DNA from: an uncultured Ruminococcus sp.
GTDB lineage: Bacteria > Bacillota > Clostridia > Oscillospirales > Ruminococcaceae
Length of the DNA stretch: 11,432 bases
Reading direction: 5' to 3'
Assembly (NCBI GenBank): GCA_946537565.1
Contig: CAMNFW010000049.1
Span: forward strand, 1-11,432
Shown: piece after piece, positions 3,689 to 11,432 of the stretch
Layout of the letters: every line of letters starts with the position of its first letter
Numbering within the stretch: position 1 is the stretch's first letter
Program-made: the position numbers and the translations under genes
The notes under the pieces: model-generated
Seen by the model: only the letters and a program-made list of their open reading frames with translations
What the model was told of the DNA's origin: nothing
Database searches by the model: none

Positions 3689-4537
3689 TTAATATTCATC
3701 TGTCAGCTTCTGTACAAGAGCTGACAGATCATCTTTATCATAAAATTCAAGTGTAATAACGCCCTTATTTTTACCATAATCGACTTTAACTCGTCTGCCG
3801 AGGCGTTCATTCAAAGAAATTTCCATTTCGATGAAATAATTGTCGATCTTTCTATCAGATTTCATCTCATCGTCCTCCTGCATGAGAGATTTCTGAGCTA
3901 ATCTTTCTACCTGACGAACGGTCAAACCACCGTCTGAGGCTTTGATCGCTGTTTGAATAAGCAGCTCTTCATCTTCAAAAGCGAGCAGAGCTTTAGCGTG
4001 ACCTGCCGAAATATCGCCATTTTCCAGCATGCCGAGAACCATATCCGGCAAACTGAGGATCCTGACTGAATTTGCAATTGAAGATCGTGATCTTCCGACC
4101 ATTTTCGCAACTTGATCTTGAGTCATACCGTAATTTTCAATCAGCTCGTTATAACCTTTAGCCTCTTCAACGGGGTTAAGGTTTTCACGCTGAAGGTTTT
4201 CGATGATAGCGATCTGCATAGCCTGAAGATCTGAAAGCTCCTTTATGTTAACAGGAACTTCATCAAGTCCCAGCATTCTTGCAGCTCTCCATCTGCGCTC
4301 ACCCGCAACGATCTGATATCCGCCGCTGCTGAGAGGTCTGACGAGAATTGGCTGTAAAATGCCATGCTCTCGAATTGACTCAGCAAGAGAAGTTATAGCT
4401 TCATCGTTAAAATTTTTTCTTGGCTGATTACGGTTTGGCTCCAGCTCAGAAGTACGCAAAGTCTTTTTAACCTGAACGTCGCTTGAATTATCGCTGAACA
4501 GGGTATCCAGACCTGCACCTAATCCACCTTTAGCCAT
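3689..4537 (-). CDS. parB: Chromosome-partitioning protein ParB (Spo0J)
   Basis: CTP-dependent DNA clamp that loads at parS, spreads, recruits SMC and stimulates ParA. With the ATG at 4537 it has 282 residues and starts MAKGGLGAGLDTLF, the usual family N-terminus including the basic Gly-rich ParA-activating stretch. CTP-binding motifs are intact: GERRWR at 79-84 and ENLQR at 113-117. The HTH (about 137-164) contains GRSRSSIAN; the Arg at 151 corresponds to the parS-type specificity residue. A C-terminal dimerisation domain with GRRVKVDYGKNKG follows at about 235-282. An upstream in-frame TTG at 4543 is possible, but the family start favours the ATG. The only good SD is 24 nt from the ATG, with a hairpin in between. 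It lies 33 bp after parA and 12 bp before serS. Four parS sites are in this window. Confidence 0.95.
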   Translation of the reverse strand: MAKGGLGAGLDTLFSDNSSDVQVKKTLRTSELEPNRNQPRKNFNDEAITSLAESIREHGILQPILVRPLSSGGYQIVAGERRWRAARMLGLDEVPVNIKELSDLQAMQIAIIENLQRENLNPVEEAKGYNELIENYGMTQDQVAKMVGRSRSSIANSVRILSLPDMVLGMLENGDISAGHAKALLAFEDEELLIQTAIKASDGGLTVRQVERLAQKSLMQEDDEMKSDRKIDNYFIEMEISLNERLGRRVKVDYGKNKGVITLEFYDKDDLSALVQKLTDEY

Positions 4538-4568
4538 AAGCAATTCTGTTCTGAGAACAGTCTCCTTT
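4538..4568 (-). promoter_or_regulatory. Distant SD plus intervening hairpin ahead of parB
   Basis: The only strong ribosome site before parB is AAAGGAG (4568-4562), directly after the parA stop. It lies 24 nt from the ATG and 18 nt from the alternative TTG. Between them is the perfect inverted repeat CTGTTCT-C-AGAACAG (4560-4546). Folding it removes 15 nt and leaves about 9 nt from GGAG to the ATG, an ideal spacing. The repeat is seen; the ribosome-bridging role is inference. A DNA-operator role is also possible. Confidence 0.5.
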
Positions 4569-5467: not shown

Positions 5468-5483
5468 TGTTCCACATGAAACA
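5468..5483. promoter_or_regulatory. parS site, variant
   Basis: TGTTCCACATGAAACA matches the Firmicute consensus TGTTnCACGTGnAACA except for A instead of G in the CACGTG core. It is the site nearest the parA promoter and probably the weakest of the cluster. Its centre is 19 bp from the next site. Confidence 0.8.
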
Positions 5484-5486
5484 TTA

Positions 5487-5502
5487 TGTTCCACGTGGAA
5501 CA
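5487..5502. promoter_or_regulatory. parS site, perfect palindrome
   Basis: TGTTCCACGTGGAACA is a perfect 16-bp palindrome fitting the parS consensus. Middle site of the noc-parA cluster and identical to the site between mnmE and mnmG. Confidence 0.95.
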
Positions 5503-5517
5503 GCCATAAAAGAAAAG

Positions 5518-5533
5518 TGTTTCACGTGGAACA
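5518..5533. promoter_or_regulatory. parS site
   Basis: TGTTTCACGTGGAACA fits the parS consensus, with one half as in the B. subtilis site. It lies six bases past the noc stop codon and 31 bp centre to centre from the middle site. Confidence 0.95.
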
Positions 5534-5538
5534 AATAA

Positions 5539-6351
5539 TTACTTTGAAATTGGGATTCTAACGCTATATTCAATAAAATCTTCATTTTGATATTTATGAT
5601 AAAGAGCATTAATACCTGTTGCCTGCATCTGATGAACAGCTTTATTAATAGTATTTATGAAAATATTCACATTCTGAAAGTTTCTGATACGTTTTTTGTA
5701 AGCATTTTTCTCTTTTTGAGAGCCGATATACTCATCAATGTAAAGCTCCGTTCGTTCAACATTTAAGTCAAGCTCAATAATTTTCTTTAGAATTTCAAGG
5801 CGATTCTCAGGACTTGCAATCCTTAGTAATGTTCTCGCATGGCGCTCAGTGAGGGAATGCTTAATAATAAGGTCCTTTTCGGATTCAGTTAAACGCAGTA
5901 AGCGGAGCTTATTAGCAATTGTGCTTTGAGCTTTACCTAATTTTGAAGCTGCCTCAGCTTGTGTCAAACCATAGTATTTAATTAAATCCGAAATCGCAGC
6001 AGCTTCATCAAACATATCAAGCTCATGGTATTTTATTGAATTCAAAATGTAGTTGATCGATGAGTTTTCATCTTTATATTCCTGAATTACACATGGAACC
6101 ATTGACATCTTGCATAATTTTGCTGCTCTCAGTCGTTTTTCACCATCAATTAATTCGTATCTGTTGGAAATTTTACGAACCAGAAGAGGCTTAAGAATCC
6201 CATTTTCCTTGATTGAGACAGCCAATTCAATCAAATCATTCTTATATATAGCAGGTTTTGGTTTTGAAGGATCAGGAAAAATAGAAGAGACCTCCAGAAG
6301 TGTAATAACTTTTGCGATATTTTTATTTTCAGCAGTAATTAATCCAGTCAT
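5539..6351 (-). CDS. noc: Nucleoid occlusion protein Noc (ParB paralogue), divergent
   Basis: Noc proteins bind NBS sites and membrane to block division over the nucleoid. This one has 270 residues from the ATG at 6351; GAAAGGA sits about 8 nt before it, while the in-frame ATG at 6360 directly abuts the SD. The HTH (about 128-154) has GKAQSTIANKLRLLRL; Q142 and K148 match the residues I recall as giving Noc NBS rather than parS specificity. TERHARTLL and a C-terminal domain with FINTINKAVHQMQ and YSVRIPI also look Noc-like. Two features are odd. The CTP motifs are altered: GEKRLR at 70-75, and NSIKY at 104-108 where ParB has ENLQR. The N-terminus (MTGLITAENKN) shows no clear amphipathic membrane helix. 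It lies between rsmG and parA, as in Bacillus. Alternative: a repurposed ParB-like regulator. Confidence 0.82.
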   Translation of the reverse strand: MTGLITAENKNIAKVITLLEVSSIFPDPSKPKPAIYKNDLIELAVSIKENGILKPLLVRKISNRYELIDGEKRLRAAKLCKMSMVPCVIQEYKDENSSINYILNSIKYHELDMFDEAAAISDLIKYYGLTQAEAASKLGKAQSTIANKLRLLRLTESEKDLIIKHSLTERHARTLLRIASPENRLEILKKIIELDLNVERTELYIDEYIGSQKEKNAYKKRIRNFQNVNIFINTINKAVHQMQATGINALYHKYQNEDFIEYSVRIPISK

Positions 6352-6414
6352 AGATAACATCCTTTCGTATTAACTTATGTATCAATCTTAACATATTCTG
6401 GAAATAATTACTAC

Positions 6415-10579: not shown

Positions 10580-11432
10580 TCAAAGCTCGATCTTGCCATA
10601 AAGACCGCCGGCAATATCGTCTTCAGGTCTTGGCTTTTTGTAATCCTTCTCAAAGCTTGTGGAGAGATCAATAGGCTTTGCTTCGATAGGTTCACGGTTA
10701 TTTCTTCTGCGGTTATTTCCGCCCTTACCGCCTCTGTTTCCGCCGTCGTTACGGTTGTTATTTCTTCTTCTTCCGCCATTCTTGGGGTTATTGGAAGAAA
10801 TAATGATCTTTCTGTAAGGCTCTTCACCAACTGAACGAGATGAAACTCCTTCGATCTTTGAGATAGCAGAATGGATAACTCTTCTCTCATAAGGATTCAT
10901 CGGCTCAAGAGGCTGTGATCTGCCTGTTCTGAGAACGGATTTTGCAACCTTTGCAGCCAGCTGTTCAAGGGTCTCTTTTCTCTTTCCACGATAGCCCAGA
11001 CAGTCGATCGTAATGCGGAAATAATCCTTATCGCCCTTGTTTGCAATGATAGAGCAGAGATACTGTATAGAATCGAGGGTTTCGCCTCTTCTGCCGATAA
11101 TAGTGCCGTTATTGTCGCTGTCAATATTTACAACAGCACCTGTTTCATTCTGATAAACAGTGAACTGTGCATCAATATCCATTGCACAAAGAATGCTTCT
11201 GATATAATCAATAGCGATCTTCACCTTTGGTTCGAGCAGAGATTCATCTTCAATGAGAGTGAAATTATCCAGTGAATATTCAGCTTCGTCATCTTCCGGG
11301 TCTCTTGGAGTTTTCTCAGCCTTCGGAGCTTCAACAGCAGCTGGCTTCTCAGCCTTTGGAGCTTCAGCAGCAGCTGGCTTCTCAGCCTTCGGAGCTTCAG
11401 CAGCAGCTGGCTTCTCAGCCTTCGGAGCTTCA
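10580..11432 (-). CDS. jag: Jag/KhpB RNA-binding protein (KH-R3H), N-terminus outside window
   Basis: RNA-binding regulator, partner of KhpA in Firmicutes, linked to cell elongation and division and encoded beside yidC near oriC. The frame stays open to the right edge; 283 residues are visible and the Jag_N domain must lie outside. A GTG at 11224 is within the frame and is not the true start. Visible residues 1-44: repeats of EAPKAEKPAAA; 45-69 acidic linker; about 70-145 KH domain with IIGRRGETL at 111-119; about 146-210 R3H domain with the RxxxH pair R183/H187 in NPYERRVIH, then GEEPYRKIIIS. R3H is followed by an unusual tail of about 70 residues: Arg/Asn/Gly-rich 219-246 with RGG-like NRGGKGG, then an acidic/basic stretch ending GGLYGKIEL. 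Two hairpins separate it from mnmE. Confidence 0.93.
   Translation of the reverse strand, partial: EAPKAEKPAAAEAPKAEKPAAAEAPKAEKPAAVEAPKAEKTPRDPEDDEAEYSLDNFTLIEDESLLEPKVKIAIDYIRSILCAMDIDAQFTVYQNETGAVVNIDSDNNGTIIGRRGETLDSIQYLCSIIANKGDKDYFRITIDCLGYRGKRKETLEQLAAKVAKSVLRTGRSQPLEPMNPYERRVIHSAISKIEGVSSRSVGEEPYRKIIISSNNPKNGGRRRNNNRNDGGNRGGKGGNNRRRNNREPIEAKPIDLSTSFEKDYKKPRPEDDIAGGLYGKIEL
11321..11432 (-). repeat. 33-bp in-frame tandem repeat in jag
   Basis: Three full 33-bp units (11321-11353, 11354-11386, 11387-11419) and 13 bp of a fourth reach the window edge. Units differ by one or two bases; each encodes the 11-residue Ala/Pro/Lys/Glu unit EAPKAEKPAAA (one has V in place of the last A). It probably forms an extended linker between Jag_N and KH and may vary in copy number between strains. 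Confidence 0.95.

Follow-up and report, generated by a model that had tools for sequence, protein, structure and literature searches.

The noc gene in the 11,432-nucleotide stretch of Ruminococcus DNA analysed here (the window) very probably encodes a Noc protein whose CTP switch is dead and whose DNA recognition is retained. From its sequence, we put at roughly 0.6 the probability that this protein is a CTP-independent, locally site-bound DNA-binding protein with a broken switch, and no longer a CTP-gated membrane-tethering clamp. The locus holds the following features.

5539..6351, minus strand: noc orthologue coding sequence of 270 aa, with ATG at 6351; an in-frame alternative ATG at 6360 gives 273 aa
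4571..5380, minus strand: parA, locus neighbour of noc
3689..4543, minus strand: parB with GERRWR and ENLQR intact, the internal control
5468-5483, 5487-5502 and 5518-5533, no strand assigned: three parS-like 16-mers (TGTTCCACATGAAACA, TGTTCCACGTGGAACA and TGTTTCACGTGGAACA) between noc and parA

The reading frame at 5539-6360 on the minus strand is open and its product is a ParB/Noc protein of 270-273 aa, which matched PF02195 with 70.6 bits and PF17762 with 99.3 bits in a profile search. The start had been chosen by Shine-Dalgarno spacing in the preliminary description, and ATG at 6351 (MTGLIT...) does have the better Shine-Dalgarno match and aligns with the start of the relatives. The gene order is rsmG-noc-parA-parB, with noc sitting between rsmG and parA-parB, and the same three genes adjoin noc in relatives too; the window gene is the noc orthologue of this Ruminococcus-type locus. 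We take the order to be the same as that of the B. subtilis noc locus. The top solved-structure matches of the protein were Geobacillus Noc and B. subtilis Noc. The NCBIfam model TIGR04285 (nucleoid_noc) scored 233.4 bits with the window Noc, below the curated 315 bits, and 232.9 bits with the window ParB, and so does not separate the two here. A search of the genome from which the window comes (assembly 90% complete) found two ParB_N proteins only, Noc and ParB, and thus a second intact Noc was not seen. Sequencing error was considered as the cause of the changes described below; the protein cluster has three member sequences on two contigs, and the erosion runs across the N-terminal domain (NTD) and not at one spot. 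At least two parS-like sites were present in 108 of 118 genus loci, as counted in the fetched stretch around noc. At locus L033 of genome G012, whose HTH-only Noc is the shortest of all, the stop-to-stop frame of this Noc contains a perfect parS, with two more upstream. Elsewhere in the window, a 33-bp tandem repeat of 3.6 copies (11313-11432) encodes a repeated EAPKAEKPAAA near the N-terminus of the product of 10580-11431 (minus strand), likely a Jag/KhpB-type gene, the name being taken from context.

The CTP boxes of the window protein lie at these positions.

6187..6201, minus strand: Box I loop GILKP, whose Lys position is Gln in all 98 intact relatives
6127..6144, minus strand: Box II GEKRLR, residues 70-75, in which R73 aligns with R89 of B. 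subtilis Noc
6028..6042, minus strand: Box III NSIKY, residues 104-108, in place of ENIQR; S105 aligns with N121 of B. subtilis Noc

Compared with its relatives, Q54 of Box I and R72 of Box II are both changed to K, and E104-N105-x-Q107-R108 of Box III has become N-S-x-K-Y. GEKRLR at 70-75 and NSIKY at 104-108 had been read earlier from the letters alone, together with the replacement of Glu-Asn by Asn-Ser and of the last Arg by Tyr, and intact GERRWR and ENLQR had been read in the ParB of the same window. All of this was confirmed: the two motifs hold in the 270-aa numbering, both ParB boxes are intact, and in an alignment to the solved B. subtilis and Geobacillus Nocs the N-S pair sits under E-N of ENLQR, with no copy of an ENxxR box in a shifted position. 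The wider statement that the CTP motifs are degenerate stands for Box III (NSIKY) and Box I (Q54K), which leave the protein without an intact set of boxes I-III, but not fully for Box II, where GEKRLR is only mildly changed, R73 is kept and K72 is conservative. By alignment to B. subtilis Noc, R89 is kept as R73, N121 is lost as S105 and the equivalents of E120 and R124 are also changed. Box III reads VENIQR in 115 of the 120 best homologues listed, the other five being LNSIKY (the window), VEDIKR, VKNIQR, IENIQR and VENILR.

The Noc of B. subtilis was reported as the first CTP switch for membrane binding (PMC8429893). In the same work, its N121S variant showed no binding of radiolabelled CTP at the concentration used, and in ITC its binding of a CTP analogue was weaker by a factor of about three (232 versus 68 μM). 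This variant neither hydrolysed CTP nor bound liposomes, nucleated without spreading and failed to complement, and its N-terminal domains still crosslinked at 1 mM CTP (PMC8429893). By analogy with this published phenotype, the window Noc would have lost CTP binding and hydrolysis. Counter-evidence to a dead switch is that R73 and most of Box II are kept, that the NTD fold is predicted at moderate confidence and that crosslinking persisted in the B. subtilis N121S variant at 1 mM CTP. The pocket may instead be remodelled, with Box II still binding a nucleotide (CTP weakly, or another) and driving a slow or altered switch; the retention of E71, R73 and R75 in GEKRLR, the predicted fold and an NTD dN/dS of 0.08 in one degenerate pair (G013/G142) agree with such a pocket. 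We consider it unlikely, since the window Noc has changed the Gln of Box I together with four residues of Box III (Glu, Asn, Gln and Arg), since N121S alone disables B. subtilis Noc (PMC8429893), and since related species dispense with the whole CTPase domain.

The domains of the window protein are given below.

6304..6351, minus strand: N-terminal tip MTGLITAENKNIAKVI, residues 1-16, a weakened counterpart of the genus MAGFLNFTKEK tip
6022..6303, minus strand: ParB_N / CTPase-fold domain, residues 17-110, eroded, with the fold still predicted
5737..6021, minus strand: HTH DNA-binding domain, residues 111-205, pLDDT mostly over 90
5908..5937, minus strand: recognition helix region GKAQSTIANK with Q142 and K148; R153 (5893-5895) and R170 (5842-5844) complete the quartet
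5542..5736, minus strand: linker and C-terminal dimerisation-type domain, residues 206-270

Sites conserved in at least 90% of intact genus Nocs were kept at 49 of 56 positions in the HTH of the window Noc, 30 of 51 in its CTPase domain, 27 of 38 in its C-terminal part and 1 of 7 in its tip. The mean kept fraction in the intact relatives is 0.94-0.99 per region, and their lowest CTPase-domain value is 0.84. The AlphaFold model covers the 273-aa form, which starts at the earlier ATG, except for its last two residues; it gives the NTD fold with moderate confidence, a pLDDT mostly above 90 in the HTH and values under 50 for the first 17 residues. The four Noc DNA-specificity positions (Q, K, K/R, R) have been defined in PMC7383237. 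The HTH had been called Noc-like on account of Q142 and K148; these are present, as are R153 and R170 at the remaining two positions, and the quartet is Q-K-R-R in all 118 genus Nocs, intact and broken.

A search of 125 genomes of the genus gave 118 Noc orthologues; six genomes had no match, and G140 (79% complete) had a single match of ParB strength (E 1.4e-25), ParB-sized, and no Noc-sized match. The CTP boxes were broken in 20 of the 118 orthologues, eight of these with the CTPase domain deleted or replaced. A strict count over six box positions makes it 23 of 118; G133, G139 and G145, with one changed position each, were counted as intact. Five Nocs of 192 aa have no CTPase domain (mini-Nocs; genomes G062, G146, G123, G136 and G125), and in their layout a short tip leads directly into the last helix before the HTH. 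In G017 and G117 (loci L034 and L043), about 45-70 dissimilar, fast-changing residues replace the CTPase domain between a kept tip and the HTH, and little but the HTH is left of the G012 Noc. Twelve broken Nocs, that of the window included, are full-length with an altered domain, and five of them are mild cases (G087, G124, G116, G121 and G122). Among the best 120 matches to a mini-Noc query, at least 32 clusters, genus mini-Nocs included, had PF17762 without PF02195; one of them (P0193) is an apparent fragment of an ordinary Noc, and leaving it out gives at least 31 HTH-keeping clusters without a CTPase domain. A different junction and an HTH nearer to ordinary Nocs suggest that clusters P0147-P0150 stem from a further separate domain deletion. 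A named example of a mini-Noc is that of a Ruminococcus flavefaciens MAG, whose gene lies on an 894-kb contig.

On a quick tree built from RsmG, ParA and ParB of 110 genomes (8 of the 118 were too gappy and were left out, among them G013, G121 and G123), the degenerate versus intact state required 11 changes, at least 8 of them forced by well-supported branches, and domain loss alone required 3. The window lies on a long branch of this tree, so that its own placement is unsure. In AU tests on a hand-chosen subset of 30 genomes, one clade was rejected for the seven domain-lost rows (p 2e-17) as well as for the six remaining without G012 (p 0.003). The lesions in Noc also differ from lineage to lineage. 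The CTP switch thus appears, from these sequence comparisons, to have been lost separately several times within one genus, in some cases by deletion of the whole domain. The preliminary description had proposed a Noc lineage working without the CTP switch; loss of the boxes with kept DNA recognition, seen also in relatives, bears this out, but the loss is recurrent and does not mark one lineage. The open-access literature searched yielded no description of Nocs lacking the CTP boxes or of truncated Ruminococcus Nocs, and a 2025 ParB-CTPase survey presents Noc as retaining the canonical architecture.

Two controls bear on how special this loss is. GERRWR and ENLQR were present in ParB of all 17 degenerate-Noc genomes with ParB in hand. 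Both boxes were found in 101 of 106 ParB pieces, the other five ending before the boxes where the fetched stretch was cut, so that ParB is intact in all 101 pieces long enough to show them. For the second control, 18 Noc-like loci were read in further families of the order: E-N-x-x-R was kept in 17 of these proteins (one reads ENLMR) and a GERR Box II in all 18 (one reads GERRLQ). The protein of G050 (L204, another family of the order) has ANLLS as Box III and Arg at the specificity Gln position, and could represent an independent loss beyond the genus; the match in G051 is divergent, and in G053 the Gln position is occupied by Pro. With ParB intact and E-N-x-x-R kept in 17 of the 18 outside proteins, frequent loss looks peculiar to the genus in this sample, with G050 as a possible exception.

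Is the NTD merely the first part to go of a Noc that has become dispensable? Such decay of the gene would fit the recurrence of the loss, which resembles relaxed selection, the lack of a Noc-sized match in G140 (79% complete), and the finding that a small number of conserved NTD sites goes together with C-terminal loss (27 of 38 sites remain in the window Noc and 4 of 38 in that of G012). We hold it to be quite improbable, as the reading frames remain open, the promoter element described below is kept, the specificity quartet is Q-K-R-R in 118/118, and the HTH is retained in at least 31 clusters without a CTPase domain among the matches listed. HTH dN/dS, at 0.03-0.10 in four mini-Noc pairs, also argues against decay; the values were 0.034, 0.051 and 0.044, all three saturated with dS over 2, and 0.103, and a fifth, very close pair gave 0.184. 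The HTH is constrained in the relatives, as judged from these genus pairs. For the NTD, nine intact pairs gave dN/dS values of 0.013-0.126, and the values of three full-length degenerate pairs were 0.078, 0.189 and 0.27, with overlap between the ranges. The value of 0.078, from G013/G142, lies inside the intact-pair range; the NTD of this pair is still constrained and may still do something, which speaks against free decay there.

The tip of the window protein had been described as lacking an evident membrane helix. Its hydrophobic moment of 0.34 (median 0.48 in 98 intact relatives) and hydrophobicity of 0.33 lie below the 5th percentile of those relatives (0.37 and 0.40, respectively), and the Phe residues of the genus tip are absent from it. 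The tip is thus weakened, but this is a matter of degree and not plain absence. The tip packs on the NTD in apo-Noc (PMC8429893), and a protein freed of autoinhibition by the CTPase domain might have its tip always exposed and act as a constitutive membrane tether, for which the short hydrophobic N-terminus of the mini-Nocs, leading directly into a helix, could serve. This reading is very improbable, because the window tip and those of the five genus mini-Nocs are poorer in Phe and have a lower moment (0.23-0.28 in the mini-Nocs), and because the NTD is still present in the window protein.

A potential site of action for a CTP-independent, site-bound Noc is found upstream of its own gene.

6385..6413, minus strand: noc promoter with -35 TAGTAA (6408-6413), 17-bp spacer and extended -10 TGTTAAGAT
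6399..6406, minus strand: TATTTCCA in the promoter spacer, counterpart of the genus TATTTCC[C/G], the NBS half-site

In an unprompted k-mer count of rsmG-noc intergenic DNA, the top shared 8-mers were GGAAATAA (63/115) and GGGAAATA (62/115). Both belong to TATTTCC[C/G], located in the 17-bp spacer of the conserved noc promoter, and of the 8 bases of this element 7-8 agree with the NBS half-site; the published Noc crystal DNA contains the 16-mer TATTTCCCGGGAAATA (PMC7383237). TATTTCC[C/G] had 88 matches in the noc-upstream regions of 119 loci, 87 of them in sense, with about 3 expected from shuffles, and 152 matches outside these regions, mostly in coding sequence, including 81 in parA. TATTTCCC was exact in 62 of 111 noc promoters and within one mismatch in 103 of 111, and each of the 18 degenerate or mini-Noc genes listed has it upstream with at most one mismatch. 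The window element TATTTCCA has A at the eighth base. No clear second NBS half was found in the noc promoter. Noc probably autoregulates its own promoter through this half-site, to which it is predicted to bind.

Other candidate targets were rejected. TTTCCCGGGAAA, the NBS core of Bacillus, did not turn up in the window's genome and occurred at 1-2 sites each in 17 of 125 genus genomes, and was discarded as the genus target for being absent or rare across the 125; sites of a different sequence may exist. TTNCNCGNGNAA occurred at 30 places in G034, without a repeated perfect palindrome. No chromosome-wide Noc site was found in the genus genomes scanned. ATTTCCGGAAAT seemed strongly enriched as a genus NBS (up to 21 copies as compared to 0 in a reversed control, which ignores codon use), but was rejected because it is found mainly within long reading frames, in which it can encode Ile-Ser-Gly-Asn: 26 of 30 copies were in frames of at least 100 aa, and 19 of 22, in short stretches, were in frames of at least 110 aa. 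Synonymous spellings are frequent in G121 as well, with 21 TCC-GGA as compared to 9 TCC-GGT, 7 TCC-GGC, 9 TCA-GGA and 4 TCG-GGA; with such small numbers, counted in one genome, an artefact is likely and not proven. Three copies of ATTTCCGGAAAT lie in promoter-like spacers such as TTGAC...TATAAT (L156 294, L166 506 and L175 300), two of them in related stretches of G002 and one in G087 upstream of a metK-like frame, and could be the site of a regulator.

As to how the window Noc may work, a dimer, presumably held by the C-terminal domain, would bind its DNA site through the intact HTH and stay there. As it lacks Box III and its tip is poor, the protein would not close as a clamp on CTP, would not slide and would expose no membrane tip. 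With the switch broken and no clamp or tip response expected, local DNA binding independent of CTP is the most likely mode of action. The NBS half-site of its own promoter is one likely target; a protein sitting there, between -35 and -10, would repress transcription. Nucleoid occlusion by the window Noc would then be lost. ParT of SCP2, a ParB-like protein without a CTPase domain, is reported to load and diffuse on DNA still (PMC12260392). The predicted model of a mini-Noc has a comparable layout, with one N-terminal helix, the HTH domain, a C-terminal helix and two strands, and hence CTP-independent diffusion on DNA is conceivable here too.

MinC_C was found in none of the 125 genus genomes using one family model, which detected the B. 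subtilis control. Cells with a broken Noc may thus have neither classical spatial regulator of division, and this would make the choice of division site directly testable in these species. S. aureus is also without Min; its Noc binds close to the origin and influences both division and the initiation of replication (PMC12203958). Our tentative proposal for this genus of gut Bacillota, in which MinC was not found, is one to which we give somewhat less than even odds: that Noc, once a DNA clamp gated by CTP and tethering to the membrane, has repeatedly become a site-bound DNA regulator that works without CTP, the most extreme route being clean removal of the CTPase domain; that a ParT-like architecture was so reached independently; and that Noc-type nucleoid occlusion was given up or replaced in those species. 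A genus with repeated loss of the switch beside an unchanged ParB is a natural experiment, which may separate the functions of Noc that need CTP from those that need DNA binding alone.

Like the Nocs of B. subtilis and Geobacillus, the window protein consists of ParB_N, HTH_ParB and a C-terminal domain and has the Q, K, K/R, R specificity residues. It differs from them in the lost residues of Box I and Box III, in the weakened tip and in the Bacillus NBS core not being found in its genome, and its mini-Noc relatives are without the whole CTPase domain. Chromosomal ParB (Spo0J) is of the same fold family as Noc and is encoded by a neighbouring gene; the window ParB keeps GERRWR, ENLQR and an LGAGL motif of the ParA-binding type, whereas the HTH of Noc carries Q/K/R/R. 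ParT of the Streptomyces plasmid SCP2 resembles the mini-Nocs in having an HTH and a C-terminal dimerisation domain with a short helical N-terminus only, although ParT is a plasmid partition protein with a ParA partner, and a mini-Noc derives from a chromosomal Noc and has an intact ParB as its neighbour. ParT homologues are reported mainly from Actinomycetota and Cyanobacteriota (PMC12260392). In contrast to ParT, the window Noc keeps an eroded CTPase domain (PF02195, 70.6 bits), and absence of the domain is seen only in its mini-Noc relatives, which are small candidate CTP-free site-specific binders for comparison with ParT.
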